A stretch of 32,827 nt of DNA, from the IMG/VR virus record IMGVR_UViG_3300013092_000002, positions 1 to 32,827 of that record; one strand, written 5' to 3'. How positions within the stretch are numbered: position 1 is the first letter of the stretch; each line of letters starts with the position of its first letter. The DNA is from a virus. Made by a program: the position numbers and the translations under genes. Shown here piece after piece: positions 138-30,059 of the stretch. The notes beneath the pieces were generated by a model. The model had not been told where the DNA came from and ran no database searches. It worked only from the letters and a program-made list of their open reading frames with translations.

Positions 138-1166
138 ATGACCCTATTAGAACTCTTAACCAGTTCATTGCGATCTATTGGGGTTAAAAATCCCGGTGTC
201 ACCTTGACGGCAGAAGAGGTCAATGATGCTAAAGAAATTCTAAATCTATTACTAGATGAATTGAGCGTCGTTGTGGGGATAATCTATGCCGCTACCATAG
301 AGGGACTTACTCTAACTATAGGGGCTGCTTCCCGGACCATTGGGATAGGACAATCGCCCCCAATTGCGCCAACCGCCAATTTATCTGCTACAGCCGGTAT
401 AGTTACATCGGGCAATCATTATGTGAAGTTGACGACTGTAACTGCGATAGGGGAAACTACACTTGGAACTGCGACGGCAGTTGTTAATGCTGATGGTTCC
501 CATAAAATTGATGTCTCGGTTATTCCACCAATTGGTGGAGAAATAATTGGTTATAATGTCTATATGACTAAAGCTGGAGGTACAACTTATTACTTCGTTG
601 CTCTGGTAGCAAGTACTACTTACGCGATAAATGTTGCCGATGTTTCTTTGACAGTGGTGGCTCCGACTACAAATACTACAGGCGGAAACTTCAATACAGT
701 TAGACCGACTCAAATCCTTAATGCTTTTGTCCGGGATTCCGGGGGGACAGATCACGATGTTGCGATCATCGGACCCGGGAAGTACCAGGGGATTTCGACC
801 AAGACTACGGCAGGACGGCCATACTTCCTTCATTTTGTGGGAACTGCTCCTCTTGGCACTATTTATCTTTATCCCGTACCTGATGCCGCTGAAACCCTCT
901 ACCTTGATAGTTTGAAACCATTGACGGAGTTGACTACTTTAACAGCCACTATCGCCTTGCCACCAGGTTACATGGCCATGCTGAAATCTAATTTAGCGGT
1001 TGCCTTGGCCCCGGAATATAATCGAGAACCTTCTAAATTAGTGTTTCAAGAGGCTCACGATACCAAGAAGGCAATTATTGCCATTAATGCCGCCAGTCGG
1101 CATGAACCGGTGAATCTTAGGTACGGGCATAACCCCGGTTATCCCCGCAGTATTCTTGAAGGATAG
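138..1166 (+). CDS. P22 gp4-like head-tail connector / tail accessory factor with an inserted domain
   Basis: The N-terminus (residues 1-72) has the family pattern of a helical start followed by 'TAEEVNDAKEILNLLLDEL'. The C-terminal part (about 182-342) carries the matching second half: 'FNTVRPTQI', 'GRPYFLHF', 'GTIYLYPVPD', 'LPPGYMAMLKSNLAVALAPEY'. In P22 this protein closes the portal after packaging and starts tail assembly. Family members are usually about 160-230 residues. This one is 342 because a beta-rich segment (residues ~74-180) interrupts it between 'IGIG' and 'FNTVRP'. A close copy of that segment lies in the next large gene. It starts immediately after a microprotein stop. Family assignment is from pattern memory, not a search. 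Confidence 0.8.
   Translation: MTLLELLTSSLRSIGVKNPGVTLTAEEVNDAKEILNLLLDELSVVVGIIYAATIEGLTLTIGAASRTIGIGQSPPIAPTANLSATAGIVTSGNHYVKLTTVTAIGETTLGTATAVVNADGSHKIDVSVIPPIGGEIIGYNVYMTKAGGTTYYFVALVASTTYAINVADVSLTVVAPTTNTTGGNFNTVRPTQILNAFVRDSGGTDHDVAIIGPGKYQGISTKTTAGRPYFLHFVGTAPLGTIYLYPVPDAAETLYLDSLKPLTELTTLTATIALPPGYMAMLKSNLAVALAPEYNREPSKLVFQEAHDTKKAIIAINAASRHEPVNLRYGHNPGYPRSILEG
358..674 (+). repeat. Inserted beta-rich domain, copy 1 (within connector)
   Basis: This codes about 103 residues from 'APTANLSATAG' to 'LTVVAPTTN'. By hand alignment it is roughly 70% identical in protein to copy 2 at about 1821-2133, with shared blocks 'GNHYVKLT', 'HKIDVS', 'YMTKAGG', 'TYYFVA' and 'TTYAIN'. It looks like a fibronectin/Ig-like fold, but that is inference. 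Confidence 0.85.
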
Positions 1167-7036: not shown

Positions 7037-8173
7037 ATGGCAGACTTTCGGCTCCCTGAACTAAAACCGGCGGATGTGGATTATGTCAATGCTTTCGCCA
7101 AGGGGTATGCGGCTCCTGATGTTATGCAGGCTCCGGGGTTAGCCAATACTCTTACCCAAGCGAAGATAACTGAGGAACAGAATAAACTCGCGGCTGGGGC
7201 GGAGTATGCGAAGACCAAAGACCCTAATGCACTTGCTGGGGGTTTCCCGGTAGAAACAGCTAAATTCAATTTGTTACAGCAAGAACAAGCGGGAAAATCT
7301 TTAAAAGCGGCAGGGGAAGCCGGATTTTTGTTGAAAGATGCGTTAAAAGACCCGGCCACATACCGAGGAGCTAGGGACTATTTGATGACAATATCAAAAC
7401 ATGTCGGTCTGTATTTACCAGAAACCTTTGATCCAGTAAAAACCCCCTTAATGATTGATAGTTTGGCAGGCCAATATATAAAAGCCAAGAAACTTGAGGG
7501 AACTAGGACAAGTGGTATGACTATGGCCGAGTTTGCGAGAGATTATCCCACGGAATACAACGCAGCGATGAAGGCGAGGCAGGGGCCTCAAAACCAACAC
7601 GCGGTAATTCCCTTTGGTGGGGGCGATGCTACTCTTTTGCCACCTGGGGTTGTGCCTCACTTACAACCAAATCCTCAAATCACTGTGCCGATAAGTCCGA
7701 CAGGACAACCCGGACCCCCCCTACCTCCAGGGCAAAGAGGGGTGATATTGCCGCAACCTCAAACTGATCCTACTAAGGGAGAACGGGCAGAAGAGGCTCA
7801 AACTTTCAAAATTGAACAAGATACTGCCGAAAAGGTGAAAACCTTTAGTGATCCTAAGAGCACCCCTGAATCCAAGGCACAAGCAGAAGCGGTATTGAGA
7901 TCGCGGGGGTGGACTGATGGGACAATCAATGCTCCTGGAGCGATATTTGGGACATTATGGCCCGGCGAAAAACAAACTTTAGTCCCTCCACCCCCCGTTG
8001 CAAGGCCGACTAGGGCGCAACCGGCGGCGGTGCAACAGGTGGGGCCGGGTCGAAAACCGAGTCAGCAAGACTTGGGAGATTACCAGCGGGCCTTACAAAT
8101 GAATCAAGGCAATCCCGAGAGAATACAGGCTATCAAACAAAAAGCTGTGTCGGCCTGGGGGTATGCACCATAA
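7037..8173 (+). CDS. Putative internal virion / ejection protein, 378 aa
   Basis: ATG 7037 has AAGGGGAAAG upstream. The first ~180 residues are helical and Ala/Lys-rich ('AKITEEQNKLAAGAEYAK'). The second half is a Pro/Gln/Gly-rich linker ('GQPGPPLPPGQRGVILPQPQ'), which suits a flexible ejected protein. It sits between the gp7-like gene and the large internal virion protein, and its TAA overlaps the next ATG by one base. No enzyme motif is visible. Function is inferred from position and composition. Confidence 0.55.
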   Translation: MADFRLPELKPADVDYVNAFAKGYAAPDVMQAPGLANTLTQAKITEEQNKLAAGAEYAKTKDPNALAGGFPVETAKFNLLQQEQAGKSLKAAGEAGFLLKDALKDPATYRGARDYLMTISKHVGLYLPETFDPVKTPLMIDSLAGQYIKAKKLEGTRTSGMTMAEFARDYPTEYNAAMKARQGPQNQHAVIPFGGGDATLLPPGVVPHLQPNPQITVPISPTGQPGPPLPPGQRGVILPQPQTDPTKGERAEEAQTFKIEQDTAEKVKTFSDPKSTPESKAQAEAVLRSRGWTDGTINAPGAIFGTLWPGEKQTLVPPPPVARPTRAQPAAVQQVGPGRKPSQQDLGDYQRALQMNQGNPERIQAIKQKAVSAWGYAP

Positions 8174-11100
8174 TGGGAATTTTTGACGAATATCTTCCTT
8201 ATTCTATTCCGAGGTCGGACAAGGTTTCCCCTGATCTTATGGATAGGTTTGGAGAACTTTCTCAAGACTTCTATGGACAGACAGGAGAACCGCTCAGGGT
8301 TACAGACAGCTTTAGAACCTATGCCGAACAAGCGGCTGCCCATGCTCGGAAACCTACATTGGCTGTGTCCGCAGGTAAATCCAGACACGAAACCGGTGCT
8401 GCCCTGGACATTGACCAGGAGCAGATAGCAAAATATGGGGTAGAGAACTGGAAAGAACTGGTAACAAGACACGGTTTCGCTATGCCTGCTTTGTCAAAAG
8501 GAGAACATTACCACATCGAACTGCCAAGATTTGAGAAGGCCGGTAAGATAGCCGCTACTACCGGGGGCATGTTCGATGAATTCCTGCAAGAATCCCCCGG
8601 CAAACCAGGTGGAATGTTCGATGAGTTTATGGATCAATCTGGACAACAGATCACCAGCGAATTTGCCCCCCAAGACACCGGGATAAGTGATTATTTGAAA
8701 CATAAACCGTTGTCTCCTGATCCTAACACCCGGGGGGATATGGCGGTAGGTGCGGGGAAGAGTTTGATAAAACTTGCTATGGAGACCTTTGGCTTTGGCA
8801 TAGCGGAACCTATTGCCAAGGGAGTTGCTAAAGCTTTAAGTCCAGCCGATAAACGAGCTGAAATAGACAAAACCGCCCAGGAAATGAAAACTAAAATCCT
8901 TGGCGACCTGACTTACACGCCCCAGACCAATTTTGAAAAGGGAGTCAACTTCATTCCAGAAGTAGTGGGGAGTGTTTTGCCCTATATCGCTACGGGGGGA
9001 CTTGCCAGGGCAGCAGGTATCAAAGGCATCCCCGGAGCACTGGCGACTTTCGCCGGGGCTGAACTTCCCAAAGCCTACGGAGAGGGTGGCCTTCCAGCAG
9101 TGGTAAAACAGTTGCCTTGGACAGCAGGTATGGGGTTAGGATTTGGCGGAGTCCACAAGTATATTCCCGGGTTTGTCTCTCAAGGGGCGGCGATCACTGG
9201 TCTGGCCGCGGGGCAATCGGCTCTTCACCAACAGATCGCCAAAGGAGAAGTAGACCCTCTGGAAGTAGCAAAAGCCGCGGGAACAATGGCACTCTTGCAT
9301 GGGACAGGGTTGCCGGGGTATTTGAAGCAAAGGAAATTTGCGAAATCGGTTGCGGAAGCCGATTCAGCATTGGGAATTCCCCCGCCCCCTGAAAATATTT
9401 CTGATCTGACTAATAAATTAGACGCAATAAGGAAACAATACGAAATTGACAAGACCAGTCCAGAACAGAGAAAACCAACCCCGTCCCCTGAAGAAGTGAA
9501 GGTTGAGGTTGAAAGACTTAAAGAAGAATACGCTCAAGGGAATGAAGTTCCCATCATATCTGAGAGTTTACCTCTAAATGTTATTGAGAAACTTAGGAAA
9601 GGCGAGAAATTAAGCCCCAAACAAGATGTCGTGCTCAAAGACAAAATATTTATCGCTCTGGTTGGGATAAGGTCGTATCCCGAATCGGTGGCTTGGGAAC
9701 AATATGGTTTCGTGCCAGTGCAGGATAAGGCACCTTATATTGGTTTACAGACTCCCCGGACTATGGCCACAGGGAATATTCCTGAACCGCCTCCTGGTGG
9801 GGAGATTCTTGGACCCGTACAAGGTCCTGTAATGCCTCCCACTGTGCCTATCATCCCCATTGAAGGGATAGGCACCCTTGCACAGTTCGCGGCCAGCAAA
9901 CCGACCCTCAAGCGGGTGAAGGCGGGTAAGGACGGGTTGCCCCGATATGACTATACGCGCCCCGATGGTGAGGTAGTAACGATTTATACTAATCCGGGTG
10001 AACTCCGGGCGAAGGCTATTGAGAACGCTTATCAATACGAGGTAGATAGGCTGGCGCAACCTCCTCCTATCGCCCCAATCCCTGACGTAAAGCCGGAAGC
10101 CAAGGTTGCGCCGGAAGTGCCGAGAGAGGCGGTTACACCCGCGCCCGAAGTAATCAGGCCGCCGGGGAAAGTTACCCCTACCCCAACCATTGCCGCCCCC
10201 GAGAAAGTCCAGCAGGCGGGGGCTGGTGAGGTCGCCCTGGAAGTGCAGGCGGGGAAAAGTGAAATACTTTTCGACCGTGTGGATAAATTTAGGTCGGCGA
10301 CTTTAGGCAAGGTTCACGATGCAGAATCTAAAACTTCTTATGTTATGAGTGTGCGACCAGATAATTCGGCAGAAGGGTATTCTGTAGTCTTAAAAGGAGA
10401 TAAAGGAAGCCAATCGTTTAGAATGAATTATAGAGGGGATATGCCTCTTGATGCAATGATAAAAGATTTTCAAGATTACCTTGATATTGATAATCCCGGT
10501 AGATTCAAGATTGAATTAGGCGAGGCGAAAGTTAAATCGCAACCAAAAGAAGTAGTAGTAAAACCCCAAGACCCGCCTCAGATTGCCGAATGGAAGGAAC
10601 AATTAGCAAAATATAAGCGCATGAGAACGGGGCCTGCTGAAAAAATGGTTCCTGTCATGGAACGCAGAATAAATGCTGACCCTTCAAAATGGAAGGAAGG
10701 GGATGGTGTCGGATGGAAAGTAGCCGGACAAACGAATCGGGGATTTGCCATTGATACAATAGACCCCGAGAGTAAAATGGCCCTTATAAAGCAGGTGGCC
10801 GATACTGAATTAACCTCTACTGGCGGAGACTACGACAGGATTAAACCTAAATGGGTTCCTCTGGGAGACTTGGTTAGAGATAACAAATACAACCTGAAGT
10901 CCGCCCCCACGCCCCCGAAAGCGGGGGAGGGGAAGGGAGGCGAACTCTACTCCGGCATCCCTGTGCATAAGATCGGGAAGGCCCTCAAAGATGTGTTTGT
11001 CGGTCAAGACCTGCCCGACATAGATACCCTTAAACAGCAAGGCCGAGATTATGTTGCTGAGGGCAAGACATCATCCGAGGCGATCGCCCAACTTAGCAAA

Positions 11101-13362
11101 GATTACCGGCGAACTCCAAAACAGATGTATGAGATTTTGGAAGGCAAGACTCCGGCAGGGAAGGTTCCTGTACCGGCAGGCCAGAAAGAAGAACAGGCAC
11201 CGACCCCGGAGGTGTCCAATCGCATAATCAAACAGCGGATGCTTACTCTTGAGAAACCCGCCTTTGATGAGATATTTACTTCCCGTAAAGAGGCACGGGG
11301 ATATTACGAGCAAGAGGGAATTGACCCAACTAATTATATTATCAAGAAAAATAAAGACAAGAATTTTCAAATCCATGAGAAAGTGCCGCGGGTTCCGCTT
11401 TACGAGGATATGGCGAATATCGCCCGGAACCTCGCAGAAGGAAAAGATTTAGACCGCAAGTTTATGGGGGCCAAGGCAGATACTTACAGCCTTGAACCTT
11501 CTATTGGCACCTTTCAGAGGTTAGAACGTGTGGCTCCCGGTATAACTGAAAAACTCTGGTACAAGGCCAAACAACTTGAAAATCAGGCGTATCAAAGATA
11601 TGAGGATTTTAAAGACCAGTTATCCCCATACACGAAAGGTTTGTCTTGGGGGTCAAGTCGCCGGATAGCGGCATGGGCTACGGCTCAACAAGAGGCTGGT
11701 CCAGAAACATTAAGGTCAATGGGCGTTAAAATGCAACCACTTAATGCCAAAGAACAACTTCTATATGATTTTGGGCGCAAAGTTTATGACGAAACTTTGC
11801 CAGAAATTAATGCCGCCAGGATACTTGCCGGGAAACAACCTATTCCGAAACGAGAAGATTATGCGCCGTTCATGCGGCAATATTTAGACTTGCTGCAATC
11901 CGGGGGCGATCCGATAACGGTAACTGCTGAATATTTTCATCCCACGGCTACGCCTTTCAAGTATGCCAAGGAACGGAAATGGAATATCACCCCATTGCGC
12001 CTTGATTTTGTGAAAGACCTGAAAGACTACATGGGAACGGCTTATAAGCATATAGAGTATTCTCCTTTTGTGTCCACGGTTCGGGAGATGGTTAATAAGA
12101 TTACAATGCCTGATGGAACAGAGGTTTCTCTGAGAGATCAATCTCCCTATACCGCTCAATATCTGACTAAATGGGCGGACAGGATTGCCGGAAAACAGGA
12201 AACCTTTGCAGGTCCATTGATTGATAAGACCCTCATAGGAGTTGCTAATAATATCGGTGTGGCCACTTTATCAGGACTTGGAACATCAGCAATAAAACAA
12301 CCCACGTCTATCCCACTCGGATGGGCTGGGATTGCTCATCAAGTGGGATATACAAAGGCCACCAGATATGTCTTAGCAGCGTTGCAGGATTCGGTTAAAC
12401 CGTCTTTCTGGCGGCAAGCGATGAATGAGAGTAACGTCCTTCCTACCCGGGAAATGGATGTTACATGGAAGGAAAGCATCACTGAGGCGCACTCTCTGGT
12501 GGGCGATTTACTCGGCAAGTTATCTCCGAAACTACAGGGTGCTTCTGAGATAATCACAGGCATCAAGAAGGGACTTGCCAATTTAGGTTACAAACCTCTT
12601 GGGTTCCTTGACATGCACGCTGCGATGGTGACTTGGGGTGCTGCAAAACGTGCTGGATTGGGAATGGGTATGGGCAGAAACGATGCAATTAGATTTGCGG
12701 ATACTCGGGTTATTAGAACCCAAGCATCCGGTTCCCCGATAGATCGTGCGCCGATCCAGGCTAACCCATTAGGGAAGTTCATGTCAGTTTTTCAAACCTT
12801 TGTTATGAACGATTTTGACTTTATTAAAAAAGAAGTTTTAGGGGTTCATGGACCTAAAGATATTTCTTCCAGTGAAGCAGCCAAGAGAATTCTCATGTTT
12901 GCCTCAGCAGGGGCATTGGTAAACATCCTCTATCGGGATGTATTAGGGGGCAATGCTCCCATGCCCGAACCGATTGCGGCAGGATATAAAAAATATATGA
13001 AGACCGGCAACATTGGCGAGACTGCATTAGAAAGTGCCAAAGAGATGACACAGATCGTCCCCCTAATCGGTGGACTACGATACGGCGGGGGTGTCTTAGG
13101 AGCAGGACCACAGTTTGTAAATGATTTATTCAGAACAGTTGCCGGAAAATGGGATGCCCCTTCTCCCCTAAAAACTGCCGGGAAACTATTGGGTATTCCA
13201 GGGACCGAACAGATGAGCAAAATTGCACGAACAAATGAAGGCAAGATGACCCTCATGGAAAACTTTTTCGGTCGGCAATCCGGACAAGAAAAACCCAAAA
13301 AAGACAAGGAAAGAGGCGGCTTCGGCGGCTTCGGTAAAAGTTCGGGATTCGGTAAGTTCTAA
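8173..13362 (+). CDS. Giant internal virion protein (1729 aa) with N-terminal M15 peptidase
   Basis: Residues ~20-118 form an M15 (VanY-type) peptidase domain: H72 and D79 in 'SRHETGAALDID', then E111 and H114 in 'EHYHIEL', giving Zn ligands H72/D79/H114 and catalytic E111. Such a domain at the front of an ejected protein would open peptidoglycan for the DNA channel. The motif G-x-FDE-(Y/F)-(L/M) occurs at residue 2 and twice more near residues 134-152. Long helical and Pro-rich regions follow, and a Gly-rich region that may cross a membrane lies near residues 260-330. The C-terminus ends 'GGFGGFGKSSGFGKF'. Length and position match the T7 gp16 / P22 gp16 role; sequence kinship to these is not claimed. 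Confidence 0.75.
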   Translation: MGIFDEYLPYSIPRSDKVSPDLMDRFGELSQDFYGQTGEPLRVTDSFRTYAEQAAAHARKPTLAVSAGKSRHETGAALDIDQEQIAKYGVENWKELVTRHGFAMPALSKGEHYHIELPRFEKAGKIAATTGGMFDEFLQESPGKPGGMFDEFMDQSGQQITSEFAPQDTGISDYLKHKPLSPDPNTRGDMAVGAGKSLIKLAMETFGFGIAEPIAKGVAKALSPADKRAEIDKTAQEMKTKILGDLTYTPQTNFEKGVNFIPEVVGSVLPYIATGGLARAAGIKGIPGALATFAGAELPKAYGEGGLPAVVKQLPWTAGMGLGFGGVHKYIPGFVSQGAAITGLAAGQSALHQQIAKGEVDPLEVAKAAGTMALLHGTGLPGYLKQRKFAKSVAEADSALGIPPPPENISDLTNKLDAIRKQYEIDKTSPEQRKPTPSPEEVKVEVERLKEEYAQGNEVPIISESLPLNVIEKLRKGEKLSPKQDVVLKDKIFIALVGIRSYPESVAWEQYGFVPVQDKAPYIGLQTPRTMATGNIPEPPPGGEILGPVQGPVMPPTVPIIPIEGIGTLAQFAASKPTLKRVKAGKDGLPRYDYTRPDGEVVTIYTNPGELRAKAIENAYQYEVDRLAQPPPIAPIPDVKPEAKVAPEVPREAVTPAPEVIRPPGKVTPTPTIAAPEKVQQAGAGEVALEVQAGKSEILFDRVDKFRSATLGKVHDAESKTSYVMSVRPDNSAEGYSVVLKGDKGSQSFRMNYRGDMPLDAMIKDFQDYLDIDNPGRFKIELGEAKVKSQPKEVVVKPQDPPQIAEWKEQLAKYKRMRTGPAEKMVPVMERRINADPSKWKEGDGVGWKVAGQTNRGFAIDTIDPESKMALIKQVADTELTSTGGDYDRIKPKWVPLGDLVRDNKYNLKSAPTPPKAGEGKGGELYSGIPVHKIGKALKDVFVGQDLPDIDTLKQQGRDYVAEGKTSSEAIAQLSKDYRRTPKQMYEILEGKTPAGKVPVPAGQKEEQAPTPEVSNRIIKQRMLTLEKPAFDEIFTSRKEARGYYEQEGIDPTNYIIKKNKDKNFQIHEKVPRVPLYEDMANIARNLAEGKDLDRKFMGAKADTYSLEPSIGTFQRLERVAPGITEKLWYKAKQLENQAYQRYEDFKDQLSPYTKGLSWGSSRRIAAWATAQQEAGPETLRSMGVKMQPLNAKEQLLYDFGRKVYDETLPEINAARILAGKQPIPKREDYAPFMRQYLDLLQSGGDPITVTAEYFHPTATPFKYAKERKWNITPLRLDFVKDLKDYMGTAYKHIEYSPFVSTVREMVNKITMPDGTEVSLRDQSPYTAQYLTKWADRIAGKQETFAGPLIDKTLIGVANNIGVATLSGLGTSAIKQPTSIPLGWAGIAHQVGYTKATRYVLAALQDSVKPSFWRQAMNESNVLPTREMDVTWKESITEAHSLVGDLLGKLSPKLQGASEIITGIKKGLANLGYKPLGFLDMHAAMVTWGAAKRAGLGMGMGRNDAIRFADTRVIRTQASGSPIDRAPIQANPLGKFMSVFQTFVMNDFDFIKKEVLGVHGPKDISSSEAAKRILMFASAGALVNILYRDVLGGNAPMPEPIAAGYKKYMKTGNIGETALESAKEMTQIVPLIGGLRYGGGVLGAGPQFVNDLFRTVAGKWDAPSPLKTAGKLLGIPGTEQMSKIARTNEGKMTLMENFFGRQSGQEKPKKDKERGGFGGFGKSSGFGKF

Positions 13363-25740: not shown

Positions 25741-25881
25741 TCACCCTGGGGCACGAGTCCTGAGTGCAATTACGCGCCAGCCGGATGAAACGGCACGGGC
25801 CCGAGCGCGCTTGCCTTTCGGATTGCACTTGTCGATCCAGGGGACCGGAAGGAGGCGGACCCGTTCTGCGATGTTAGGCAT
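25741..25881 (-). CDS. Basic 46-aa protein
   Basis: GAGGAG precedes ATG 25881, which overlaps the stop of the Cas4-like gene (TAATG). The product is Arg-rich ('KGKRARARAVSSGWRVIALR'). It may bind nucleic acid and is probably co-expressed with the recombination pair. The 68 bases downstream of its stop hold a GC-rich stretch but no clear gene. Confidence 0.5.
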   Translation of the reverse strand: MPNIAERVRLLPVPWIDKCNPKGKRARARAVSSGWRVIALRTRAPG

Positions 25882-27020
25882 TAATTCTCCTCGGCTATCA
25901 TGTCGGCCAGCATTGAGAGTTCTGTTGATCCCCAATCCTTCGCCTTTTTCCCAAACCGGACCTCAATTTTAGCTAACGGCCAGCCTTTTGCTGCCAACTT
26001 GGTCAGGGCTTCGCCCACATCCGGCCCCTGGCTCTCTGTGGCTTCGCTGGGCGGGATTTCTCCCTCTGCCTCGTGGGTAGGTGCCAGTTCGGAAGCCATA
26101 GCATCCTGCGGCGTCTCAGGGGGTTTCCTGATAATCCTGGAACGCCAATGTTTAGAATCCTTCTTTTCAACCCATTTGCCTGTAATTTCCCATGCGCCGA
26201 TAAGCACACAAGGACGTTCTTTGAATGCAATTTTTACAGTCTCATCAATTTCTTTGTATTCCTTGGCGGAAGCCGCAAGACTTTCCCGCTTATCCAGCAT
26301 GGCCTCAAGTTCTTCATCATCCAACAATTCAATACCGGGGCCAAAATCGCGGCCAGGATAACAGATATGCAAATACCCGCATTGACCGCAGACTCCATCT
26401 TCCCACTTTATAGGGTCTGGCAGGGTGTTTTGCTCAACATGGGTATTAATTCGTCCGCACTTTTGTAAAATCTCATCAATCAATCCCTGATCCTTGGGGA
26501 TAATGATTTGCTTGAGTTGTCCGCTCACCTTATTTTTTAAGAGCATGATTCCATAAGGCTCATCATGCAGGAAAAGATAAGTGGTCAACTGATAGGGATA
26601 AGACCGCAAATAGGCTTGTTTGGCCCTGAGAAAATCCTGCCAATTATTGATCTTTTCCCAGGTGAAGGGGGCCATGCTTTTAATTTCCAAGGGGGGACGT
26701 TGACCATCTATCGGGAGTTTCCCGTCAATATGGCCAGAGAGTTTATATCTCTCATCAAAGAACGGGGTCTGCTGCTCTTCAACATAAAGCCCAGCTTCCC
26801 TTAAATCATCCATTACCGCCCGTTCATAGAGGTTGCCCAGGTCAAAAACCCGTTGCAAGCCCACATCGTGCATCTTCTTATCTTGCCAGCGAGTTCGGCA
26901 ATAAACAAGATAGCGGTCACAGGGATGGCCAATAGATGAGGCTCGGTTGACGTGCTGCGGGTAATTCTTGATCTTTAATTCCTTAGCATCATCAACAAGT
27001 TTTGGGATATTCAGGTTCAT
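25881..27020 (-). CDS. Cas4/RecB-like PD-(D/E)XK exonuclease with Fe-S cysteines, 379 aa
   Basis: Start taken as ATG 27020, four bases after the upstream stop. Nuclease motifs are E66 ('LYERAV'), D99 ('SGHIDG'), E112-x-K114 ('LEIKS') and a QxxxY-like element (Q144, Y148). Four cysteines (C34, and C211/C214/C220 in 'CGQCGYLHIC') sit on either side of the nuclease core, as in the 4Fe-4S cluster of Cas4 and AddB. It should resect DNA ends. The C-terminal ~100 residues are an acidic linker and a small helical domain. The gene directly upstream encodes a candidate annealing protein, so this is a phage recombination module; no cas genes are nearby. Confidence 0.8.
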   Translation of the reverse strand: MNLNIPKLVDDAKELKIKNYPQHVNRASSIGHPCDRYLVYCRTRWQDKKMHDVGLQRVFDLGNLYERAVMDDLREAGLYVEEQQTPFFDERYKLSGHIDGKLPIDGQRPPLEIKSMAPFTWEKINNWQDFLRAKQAYLRSYPYQLTTYLFLHDEPYGIMLLKNKVSGQLKQIIIPKDQGLIDEILQKCGRINTHVEQNTLPDPIKWEDGVCGQCGYLHICYPGRDFGPGIELLDDEELEAMLDKRESLAASAKEYKEIDETVKIAFKERPCVLIGAWEITGKWVEKKDSKHWRSRIIRKPPETPQDAMASELAPTHEAEGEIPPSEATESQGPDVGEALTKLAAKGWPLAKIEVRFGKKAKDWGSTELSMLADMIAEEN

Positions 27021-27024
27021 AGGA

Positions 27025-27810
27025 TTAAACTTTGATCGCCTCAATCCAGGCCAAGGCGTCATTCATTTTGCCTTTGGGGAGAAGTTTAAATTCGTCTACC
27101 TTAAATTCCACCTTGAAGTCCTCTTTGATGATTTCCATAGAGGCTCCGGCATCACACTTATTTTTAGCCTTGGCATAGAGAAGTTTGCCCTGGGCTTCGG
27201 AAATAAAGTCAGTGGCTCCCTTGCCTGTGTAATCAACTCTAGTTGCTTCGCCCTTTTTGATTTGGGATTGGGCAAGGTATTCCCATGTGAGTTTTTTAAG
27301 CCCCAGGAGATTTTGAACCGCATTGTTGAACGCATTAGTGTAAGACTTCTTTTTGATATTTCCCTCATCCACTTCTTCTATCGGTTTGAGAGTATTGATC
27401 TTTTTCCCTTCAACCCATTCCGAAATGCTAGCGAAAAATTTGTCTCGGGAAGAACAGGTGCCGATAAATCCCCGTTCAATCCCCAGGACATTGCACTTGG
27501 CTACAAGGTGGCAGGTGTAGAAATACCATTCACCCTTGAGGTCGTGGCGGACCTCCCGAGTAAACGCCGGGGGTGAAATAGAAATGCCGAAGGGGGCAGC
27601 GATTTTACTCGCGCCCGAGACAAGCAAGTAGGGGGTGCCGTTCTGATCGCACCAGTCAGCAGAATCAGTGTATTTAATGGCAATTCCAACCAGTTTTTTA
27701 TAGGCGTCCAGTTGCTTTTCAAGGCGTTGGATATTAACTAGGGGGTCGAATCCCGATTCCGGTTGGACCACTAATTCGCCAGCAGTTACAAATTCAGGTT
27801 CCATTTCCAT
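27025..27810 (-). CDS. Candidate single-strand annealing protein (Rad52/Mgm101-like), 261 aa
   Basis: AAAAGGAGACG precedes ATG 27810. I recall the pattern 'DQNGTPYLLVSGASKIAAPF ... KKKSYTNAFNNAVQNLLGL' from phage proteins encoded next to exonucleases. The helix with 'YTNAFNNAVQNLLGLKKLTW' resembles the 'TDALKRxxxxLG' helix of Rad52/Mgm101-type annealases. It would coat resected single strands and pair them with a homologue. Adjacency to the Cas4-like nuclease is the main support; the fold call is inference. Confidence 0.6.
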   Translation of the reverse strand: MEMEPEFVTAGELVVQPESGFDPLVNIQRLEKQLDAYKKLVGIAIKYTDSADWCDQNGTPYLLVSGASKIAAPFGISISPPAFTREVRHDLKGEWYFYTCHLVAKCNVLGIERGFIGTCSSRDKFFASISEWVEGKKINTLKPIEEVDEGNIKKKSYTNAFNNAVQNLLGLKKLTWEYLAQSQIKKGEATRVDYTGKGATDFISEAQGKLLYAKAKNKCDAGASMEIIKEDFKVEFKVDEFKLLPKGKMNDALAWIEAIKV

Positions 27811-28684: not shown

Positions 28685-28963
28685 TTATGATTCCTGTGTT
28701 GTCCATGACGAATCAAATTCCGCCCGATGTTGTTCATAAACAGCAAAACAAGCAGTATATCCTTCCCCAAAGACCCCCTCATACTCTTTGCGAAAATCTC
28801 CGTTAAGAATAAGGAATTTCCCGTCTTTACAGAGAGCTGTTTCTCCTCTATCTGTATCGCTTTCAAACATCTTTGTTCCAGCCCACGGACACGGGTTAAA
28901 ACTGATGTAAAAATCACCTCCATCGAGTATCATGTTATGCCGGAGTGTTTTCCATTTAGTCAT
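28685..28963 (-). CDS. Unknown early protein, 92 aa
   Basis: GGAGGAAGGAA precedes ATG 28963; the open frame extends upstream through the 28976-29000 hairpin but without a start signal. Natural composition ('DGGDFYISFNPCPWAG', 'GETALCKDGKFLILNGDF') supports this frame over the competing minus-strand frame at 28642-28923. It is the first gene downstream of the structured array. Function unknown. Confidence 0.6.
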   Translation of the reverse strand: MTKWKTLRHNMILDGGDFYISFNPCPWAGTKMFESDTDRGETALCKDGKFLILNGDFRKEYEGVFGEGYTACFAVYEQHRAEFDSSWTTQES

Positions 28964-29054
28964 TTCCTTCCTCCTTCGGGGCGGCTGGCACACCGCCCCG
29001 GTCTCGTTTGATAGGCAGCCCACAATCACGAAGGGATGCCGGTGGTTGGTTGAA

Positions 29055-29180
29055 AAATTCCTTGCGCCTGGGCCGGATTACGATTAACGGATACTCACAT
29101 TAATGGACGCCGACTTTTGCCGTACAGTTTAAAACCACAAGAACTCCCGGTGCTGCCACACCGCCAAGCGCAAGGAAATC
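29055..29180. ncRNA. Structured unit 1 of 5
   Basis: The closing stem pairs 29058-29071 with 29164-29177 (13 of 14 positions). An inner left hairpin is CCG 29073-29075 / CGG 29088-29090. The inner right hairpin is CGGTG 29148-29152 / CACCG 29159-29163, touching the closing stem directly. Variable stem core: TTGCGC with GCGCAA. The strand of transcription is not known. Confidence 0.6.
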
Positions 29181-29183
29181 GTT

Positions 29184-29290
29184 AAAAACTTCCCTGACAT
29201 GGGGCCAGATTCCCATCCCTGACTCCCTCGAAGATTATGGACCTTGCTCTCAAACCCCGGCGGTGCACACGCCGCCCATGTCAGGAAATC
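29184..29290. ncRNA. Structured unit 2 of 5
   Basis: The closing stem pairs CTGACATGGG (29194-29203) with CCCATGTCAG (29275-29284), ten perfect pairs, extendable with one bulge. Left hairpin CAG 29206-29208 / CTG 29219-29221. Right hairpin CGGCG 29258-29262 / CGCCG 29270-29274, directly touching the closing stem. Confidence 0.6.
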
Positions 29291-29382
29291 GTATGCGCTT
29301 TGGGGCAGCCCGGTAGGGCGTCCGGCCAGCTCGCAAGCTGTGGCTCCAAACCCTGTGCCGCTACCCCTCAGCGCAAGGGGTA
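29291..29382. ncRNA. Structured unit 3 of 5 (divergent)
   Basis: TGCGCT (29294-29299) pairs with AGCGCA (29370-29375) and GGGG (29302-29305) with CCCC (29364-29367), with a two-base mismatch between. Left hairpin GCCC 29308-29311 / GGGC 29316-29319. An inner hairpin CAGCT/AGCTG (29327-29340) is further from the right arm than in other units. A competing hairpin TACCCCT/AGGGGTA (29362-29382) would exclude the closing stem. Confidence 0.45.
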
Positions 29383-29387
29383 AAAGT

Positions 29388-29541
29388 GAATTCCTGGACC
29401 TGGGGCCGGATTCCCCACCCGGCTCTCATACTCACGCAAGGAATAGGTAAGTAGCGATGACCTTTGCCAGTGGGCAGTCAAAATGTCGCCCCTATTCAGT
29501 CGCTCACCCGACGCTGCCACGCCGCCCAGGTCCAGGAAATC
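29388..29541. ncRNA. Structured unit 4 of 5
   Basis: The closing stem is 14 perfect pairs: TTCCTGGACCTGGG (29391-29404) with CCCAGGTCCAGGAA (29525-29538). Left hairpin GCCGG 29405-29409 / CCGGC 29419-29423. Right hairpin CGACG 29509-29513 / CGCCG 29520-29524 with one mismatch. A central hairpin has AATAGG (29442-29447) / CCTATT (29491-29496) enclosing TGAC and TGCC paired with GGCA and GTCA (29458-29480). Confidence 0.65.
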
Positions 29542-29680
29542 ATTGACAGGGGCCGGTCTTTAACCGGCATTGGGATACGTTGCCCAATCCTTTCCAGGGG
29601 CCACTCAGATCGGCGAGCCGGGTCACGGCTGCATCTTTGGGCCACCCCCTCCCGGTTCCGCCGGGCCGCCCTGTCGAAAT
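29541..29680. ncRNA. Structured unit 5 of 5
   Basis: The closing stem pairs GACAGGG (29545-29551) with CCCTGTC (29669-29675), plus one T-G and one T-A pair outward. Left hairpin GCCGG 29552-29556 / CCGGC 29564-29568. Right hairpin CCCGG 29651-29655 / CCGGG 29661-29665. A middle hairpin is ATTGGG/CCCAAT (29569-29588). Confidence 0.55.
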
Positions 29681-29825
29681 CGTTTGTCAAAGAGCCGATT
29701 GATGCCCCCTGGCCCTTCCCCTAGTCTCCTTTGGGCTACAGGTGCTTAGAGGGGCTCCCGGGCCGCCCCGTCCGGCTTCGTTGGTGGTGGTAGGCCAGCC
29801 GGAAGAGGGTGGGGTTGATGCAAAC

Positions 29826-30059
29826 TTATTCAACCCGCCAGACCCGGAAACCGCCGTCTGAAAGTTTGCGGGTAGTAAGGCGATAGCCATAGCGTTTAGC
29901 CTGGGGCACAACAAATTGGGTCACTGATTTACGACCCCGCACGTCCTCATTGGGAATCAGAAAAGAATCTCCAATCTCCATTTCCTGAATGGGATAAATC
30001 TTTGGCGGACCGGGCCTGCGACCTTTAGGTATGGGCACATCCCTTTCGATTTCGTACAT
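29826..30059 (-). CDS. Conserved small phage protein, 77 aa
   Basis: AAAGGGAGGCG precedes ATG 30059. The order 'YEIERDVPIPKGRR', 'YPIQEMEIGDSFLIP' and 'YGYRLTTRKLSDGGFRVWRV' is a pattern I know from many phages (an uncharacterised, possibly nucleic-acid-binding beta-alpha protein). It is the last gene before the structured array. Confidence 0.75.
   Translation of the reverse strand: MYEIERDVPIPKGRRPGPPKIYPIQEMEIGDSFLIPNEDVRGRKSVTQFVVPQAKRYGYRLTTRKLSDGGFRVWRVE

Follow-up and report, generated by a model that had tools for sequence, protein, structure and literature searches.

Four of five tandem units (units 1, 2, 4 and 5) in an intergenic array of a viral DNA are members of a real, widespread RNA family. 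The window, which is the whole stretch of DNA analyzed, covered 32,827 nucleotides of the IMG/VR record IMGVR_UViG_3300013092_000002. Its early genes run on the minus strand, and the array lies in a gap of ~770 nt between two of its ORFs (Table 1). A covariance model was built from 20 homologous copies, because a MAFFT alignment of the five window units alone misaligned them. Unit 4 was part of the training set; units 1 and 2 were left out of it. The initial annotation had treated all five units as one family. This holds for units 4, 2 and 1 and, marginally, for unit 5. Unit 3 scored 4.4 bits with the family model, which is the noise level, and its membership is unproven. As had been noted, its pairing is looser, with only TGCGCT/AGCGCA and an inner stem, and its fold z-score was −2.3 on the minus strand and 0.0 on the plus strand.

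The long inverted-repeat arms described earlier do exist, at 29058-29071/29164-29177 in unit 1 and at the P1 positions of Table 1 in units 2, 4 and 5. They far exceed chance: 29000-29830 contains five exact 11-mer inverted pairs with loops of 50-170 nt, where 1000 dinucleotide shuffles averaged 0.03, and every 11-mer inverted pair of the whole window fell in this interval. Small hairpins abutting both arms were recovered in units 1, 2, 4 and 5. On the minus strand, P2 corresponds to the reported 3' hairpin and P4 to the 5' one. The shared outer context was also present but needed correction: (C/T)GATTTC(C) precedes the 5' arm and is the main sequence common to the window copies, and GGCCC is the 3' strand of P4. 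Separately, a GC-rich hairpin (GGGGCGGTGTGCCAGCCGCCCC, 28976-29001) lies just 5' of the SD of the next ORF. It looks like what is left of a family P1/P2, or like the stem of a terminator, and it matched in a plus-strand terminator scan.

Table 1. Coordinates of the array units, their helices and the flanking features in the window
Feature	Position	Strand	Remarks
Unit 4	29389..29542	-	Canonical member; cmsearch 81.7 bits; recovered again with filters off
Unit 4 P1 arms	29525-29542 / 29387-29404	-	Inverted repeat
Unit 4 P2 hairpin	29509-29524	-	Loop UGGCAG at 29514-29519
Unit 4 pseudoknot partner	29473-29477	-	CUGCC
Unit 4 P4 hairpin	29405-29423	-	GCCGGGUGGGGAAUCCGGC
Unit 2	29187..29288	-	41.4 bits, E 1.4e-5 over 772 kb
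Unit 2 P1	29275-29288 / 29190-29203	-	
Unit 2 P2	29258-29274	-	
Unit 2 P4	29204-29223	-	GUCAGG..UCUGGC
Unit 1	29053..29178	-	33.3 bits, E 6e-4 over 772 kb
Unit 1 P1	29164-29178 / 29058-29071	-	
Unit 1 P2	29148-29163	-	CGGUGU-GGCA-GCACCG
Unit 1 P4	29072-29114	-	Long loop
Unit 5	29543..29679	-	Divergent; 13.9 bits with filters off (E 0.06 in 7.8 kb), register correct
Unit 5 P1	29669-29677 / 29543-29551	-	Descriptor scan
Unit 5 P2		-	CCCGG..CCGGG; descriptor scan
Unit 5 P4		-	GCCGGU..ACCGGC; descriptor scan
Unit 3	29292..29381	-	Stable rod-like fold, UGCGCU/AGCGCA
GC-rich stretch upstream of unit 5	29690..29825	-	Contains GGGGCGGCCCGGGAG; shares direct repeat D4 with unit 5; may be a sixth copy in decay, not shown, judged from sequence only
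ORF upstream of array	29826..30059	-	Co-directional, DUF7303-like, 77 aa
ORF downstream of array	28685..29029	-	Co-directional; start probably ATG at 28963, SD AGGAGGAAGG

Homologues in other phages

Scanning IMG/VR with the P2 motif GGCGGYGTGGCAGCRYCGG gave 27 stretches. In about half of them a second motif, GCCGGGTGGGGAATCCGGCCC or similar, followed 60-150 nt on together with a flanking complementary arm, neither of which had formed part of the query. The reciprocal scan with the P4 motif gave 32 stretches, and a third pattern gave three further contigs, two with the same element. A first DNA pattern spanning P1 and P2 produced chance matches only. The covariance-model search, proposed earlier as a check on other phages, matched 46 copies (E ≤ 0.05), units 1 and 2 of the window among them, in 37 sources, most of which are IMG/VR phage contigs. 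Matches in bacterial MAGs were confined to three contigs of two MAGs, one of Gemmatimonadales (L100) and one of Pseudodesulfovibrio (L103 and L107). Several records were near-duplicates (G001/G035, G015/G036 and G017/G026), so the sources represent about thirty independent lineages. The fecal phage MT835541 and several bacterial pattern matches were weak and were rejected.

Protein queries with the ParB-like and Cas4 proteins of the window found no close relatives in IMG/VR, and the gp10-like query found one short contig. The gp10-like stabilisation protein resembles P22-like podovirus proteins (33-39% identity). The window also carries a Cas4-domain exonuclease (25881-27810, minus strand) with an adjacent unannotated protein. 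The same pair is present in the Manatee Spring podovirus MW202801 at 36-46% identity and is probably a recombination module. In this distant relative, a 2.2-kb unannotated gap (10516-12722 of L015) held no family member according to the model.

Fold, covariation and strand

On the minus strand, each unit is ordered as a variable P1, the P2 hairpin, a variable middle, the P4 hairpin and P1'. The P2 consensus is CGGCG-UGGCAG-CGYCG and that of P4 is GCCGGG-UGGGGAA-UCCGGC; the family motifs are GGCGG..UGGCAG.. and ..GGGGAAUCYGGCCC. Conserved unpaired nucleotides are the GGGU after P2 and the UGGGGAA loop. P1 arms measure 8-19 bp, and the structured domain spans 60-170 nt.

Covarying stems and a candidate new RNA family had been inferred from the window alone. 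Both inferences are borne out by homologues in dozens of phage contigs, by significant compensatory changes and by the absence of an Rfam family. In P1, six of the eight modelled pairs carried changes on both sides, each pair in 9-28 sequences. With all helices taken together, 98.4% of cells were paired, compared with 81% in shuffles. Both-side changes numbered 136, compared with 33 in shuffles, and 0/500 shuffles reached the observed value on any of these measures, P1 included. When the partner columns were slid by 1-3, pairing dropped to 29-49%. The 46-sequence alignment was itself fitted to the structure; a structure-free MAFFT alignment showed the same covariation. The P1 covariation is not a retrieval artefact, because P1 was never in any successful search pattern. 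The conservation of P2 and P4 is partly such an artefact.

Pairing between the P2 loop and part of the variable middle (UGGCAG/CUGCCA) forms a pseudoknot. Loop and partner variants were UAGCAG/CUGCUA (L024), UGUCAG/CUGACA (L050), CGGCAG/CUGCCG (L044, L060 and L064), UGGCGA/UCGCCG (L063), UGGUGU/ACACCG (L065), UGGCAU/AUGCCA (L052) and UGGUAG/CUACCA (L034). Complementarity of the P2 loops to their own middles was 5.20, versus 4.64 ± 0.08 for swapped middles (permutation p = 5e-5). Within the window, the pseudoknot is clear only in unit 4 (GGCAG/CUGCC) and is absent in unit 2. That the partner always lies in a hairpin loop was unsupported overall (p = 0.9); it does so in L029, L058, L064 and L056.

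The data support the minus strand, which is co-directional with the early operon, as the functional one. Non-Watson–Crick exceptions were mostly G-U on the element strand (P4, 38/39 sequences; P2, 15; P1, few) and would read A-C on the opposite strand. This asymmetry across the family fixes the strand as minus. The slight preference for minus-strand transcription expressed in the initial annotation is thus supported by the operon direction, by the G-U over A-C exceptions in 46 sequences and by the fold energies of units 1-4. Folding of both strands, also suggested there, gave lower energies on the minus than on the plus strand for unit 1 (−47.9 vs −34.8 kcal/mol), unit 2 (−42.9 vs −34.9 kcal/mol), unit 3 (−45.3 vs −39.1 kcal/mol) and unit 4 (−76.3 vs −65.5), and about equal energies for unit 5.

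Comparison with known elements

No Rfam 15 family matched the element above its gathering threshold, in agreement with the earlier statement that no named family of this form was known. The best sub-threshold match, DUF2815 RNA (RF03084), reached 20 of 41 bits, largely on the A-rich SD region, and was rejected. The blastn search of the window region against INPHARED found nothing. Homologue queries gave only short chance matches in INPHARED, mostly coding, and none in PLSDB plasmids at blastn sensitivity. A literature search limited to open licences found no description of the motif or of such a phage RNA family. We regard the element as new at the level of the RNA family; what it does may still prove to be of a familiar type. 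The likeness to a tRNA cloverleaf is topological only, consisting of a closing stem and an arm abutting its 3' strand. Neither the window nor any of 12 homologous loci gave an ARAGORN tRNA call, P1 is 8-19 bp, the P4 loop is UGGGGAA and the middle is unlike an anticodon arm.

ESAS and PeSL are nearest in role, and HK022 put in possible action; none matches in sequence or fold. PeSLs are described as promoter-terminator stem-loop cassettes of T4-type phages and were reported to mediate gene shuffling (Arbiol 2010; Comeau 2014, via PMC4503421). They share with our element a phage-internal, repeated intergenic stem-loop arrangement (PMC4503421), and the new element differs in being a ~100-nt pseudoknotted multibranch RNA, without a visible promoter, that is conserved across unrelated phages. 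Cassette shuffling of the PeSL type at repeated stems is seen in two natural cases in the family. As to the promoter and terminator trait, a scan of the window found no sigma70-like promoter inside the array, and a U-tract was present only in a minority of copies. The ESAS of cluster K mycobacteriophages comprise 17-bp inverted repeats with a 4-13 bp spacer and the 13-mer SAS motif, and their function is unknown (PMC3203893). Like our element, they have a genome-specific inverted-repeat consensus immediately upstream of gene starts (PMC3203893). The new element is instead a structured domain of 60-170 nt with internal motifs conserved between phages; its arms are 8-19 bp, its spacer is far longer, and no common SAS-like motif was seen.

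Genomic context and cassette borders

The elements sit between genes, mostly co-directional early or DNA-metabolism genes. The downstream gene was on the same strand in 38/42 cases (90%) and the upstream gene in 31/43; the background for adjacent genes was already 1662/2177 (76%). The upstream stop codon often lies 2-20 nt before P1, and an SD and start codon often follow 15-35 nt after P1'. Larger neighbors named by PHROG were SSB, UvsX, a Cas4-domain exonuclease, SbcC and integrase. When a shared trans-acting phage protein was sought, no protein cluster occurred in more than 6 of the 37 records, so there is no obvious dedicated protein partner, within the limits that the records are fragments and the gene calls simple. 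U-tracts after P1' (at least four T in eight) were only modestly enriched (26% vs 8%), and terminator activity is therefore unproven.

P1 arms were far more alike within a phage than between phages (identity 0.79 vs 0.38, p = 2e-4). The corresponding values for the middle, 0.42 and 0.39, did not differ significantly (p = 0.12). One phage, G018, has seven copies with CATGGCGG..CCGCCATG in 3.2 kb, two of which are 70 nt long and nearly identical. G018 and G015 are close relatives with blocks of 97-100% identity. In one gap, G015 has a single element, and G018 has an element, a 53-aa ORF and a short element followed by the element of G015; the extra ~400 nt are flanked by two CATGGCGG arms. Between L051 and L052, the element and SD are conserved (81%), unrelated ORFs of 83 and 76 aa follow, and synteny then resumes. 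Small, exchangeable virus genes appear to be delimited by family elements. Beside the family elements of G015, at ~9640-9830 of L047, lies another element of ~200 nt. Its terminal inverted repeat (GGGTTATTGAAATTTGAAAGCCACCAAA) is near-perfect over 28 bp, and it looks like a small non-autonomous transposable element.

Proposed function and alternatives

We tentatively read the array, at a little under even confidence, as tandem members of a group of unrecognised, structured, co-transcribed intergenic RNAs of tailed phages that serve as operon punctuation in cis and as cassette boundaries. The cis role is inferred without transcript, processing or expression data, and its exact biochemistry is not shown. 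The element would fold while emerging, separating the message of one gene from the next. The fold may shield the following ribosome-binding site and the mRNA end, and perhaps acts on RNA polymerase or a host RNase. The biochemical step could be a put-like effect on RNA polymerase, the processing of RNA or the insulation of translation. Separation of the messages would free expression of the following gene from dependence on its upstream neighbour, so that any small ORF inserted behind an element could be expressed. The P1 arms, repeated within a phage, could offer short homologies for recombination by the phage machinery, so that element-plus-ORF cassettes might be gained, lost or swapped there. 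No dedicated phage protein would appear to be needed. The five-fold array without intervening ORFs means that the arrangement is not simply one element per gene. The strong conservation of P1 within phages suggests a sequence-specific partner, which punctuation alone does not require.

A more general proposal, which we regard as rather doubtful, is a new class of autonomous phage RNA that needs no phage protein to work on universally conserved host machinery (RNA polymerase, ribosome or RNase). Small genes would thereby become plug-in cassettes, and with its phage-specific P1 arms the RNA would be a regulator and a recombination border at once. Should the element indeed work on host RNA polymerase or ribosomes with no protein involved, it would represent a portable RNA regulator. 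The family itself brings in a strongly covarying, pseudoknotted RNA that occurs in many unrelated, uncultured phages and was not found in Rfam, INPHARED or PLSDB searches. It also offers a molecular signature, open to testing, for where small early-gene cassettes begin and end; few parts of phage genomes evolve faster or are less well understood than these cassettes.

The elements could also be processive antitermination RNAs. On emerging, the fold would bind the host RNA polymerase and suppress both pausing and termination through long early operons, with the copies renewing the effect. HK022 put is a cis-acting structured RNA of early phage leaders that acts on RNA polymerase without a phage protein (PMC9378689). 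The likeness is hypothesised and lies in a cis-acting, structured early-transcript RNA that needs no phage protein. The position in early and DNA-metabolism operons, the cis orientation, the compact conserved fold and the lack of a shared phage protein fit this explanation. We nevertheless consider it unlikely. Copies occur in many gene gaps throughout operons and not only in leaders, where put lies, and no sequence or fold homology to put has been shown. In addition, hosts appear diverse, tandem arrays look redundant, and phage-specific P1 arms are unnecessary for polymerase binding.

Rather less probable is a mainly DNA-level role, in which the P1 arms would act as the terminal inverted repeats, or as att-like sites, of a MITE- or attC-like element and the fold would serve as a signal for transposition or in single-stranded DNA. 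The phage-specific arms common to the copies of one phage, the cassette gain and loss with gene swapping at borders, and the near-identical 70-nt copies of G018 are all consistent with it. Yet G-U pairs are common on one strand only, as expected for RNA, conservation across phages is internal (P2/P4) and not at the ends, orientation mostly follows the operon, and no recombinase is shared. Integron attC sites have conserved R boxes at their ends and an integron integrase. Our element resembles them in its paired outer arms, variable interior and place beside small gene cassettes, but its P1 ends are unrelated between phages, no integrase is common to the 37 records, and its G-U pairs are of the RNA type. 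A recombination-site function, named in the initial annotation as a possible refutation, is not excluded as a second role, because element borders coincide with gene-cassette exchange.

Cutting of the polycistronic message at every element, with the element either a self-cleaving ribozyme or the substrate of a dedicated RNase, would fit the conserved nucleotides outside the stems (GGGU and UGGGGAA), the pseudoknot and the intergenic position. It seems improbable, as no Rfam ribozyme matched the element above threshold and we identified no invariant unpaired site that would show where cleavage occurs. Trans-acting small RNAs or decoys excised from the operon would suit the tandem array, the several copies of G018 and the likeness of P1-closed units to processed RNAs; most copies are single, embedded between genes beside an SD and co-directional with the downstream gene, which makes this quite improbable. 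Chance inverted repeats or decayed coding sequence, for which only the GC-richness of the region speaks, are already refuted by the covariation in homologues, along with the shuffles, the homologues themselves and the lack of a conserved ORF.

Two further features were observed on contigs that carry elements. The phage contig L043 also has a group I intron (235-490, minus strand) and a Twister-sister ribozyme (7867-7964, plus strand), both identified by Rfam. In L127 (G008), long irregular arrays of CTGCCGTGCC-type words lie at ~9100-9460 and 11050-11350, a few kb from the elements.
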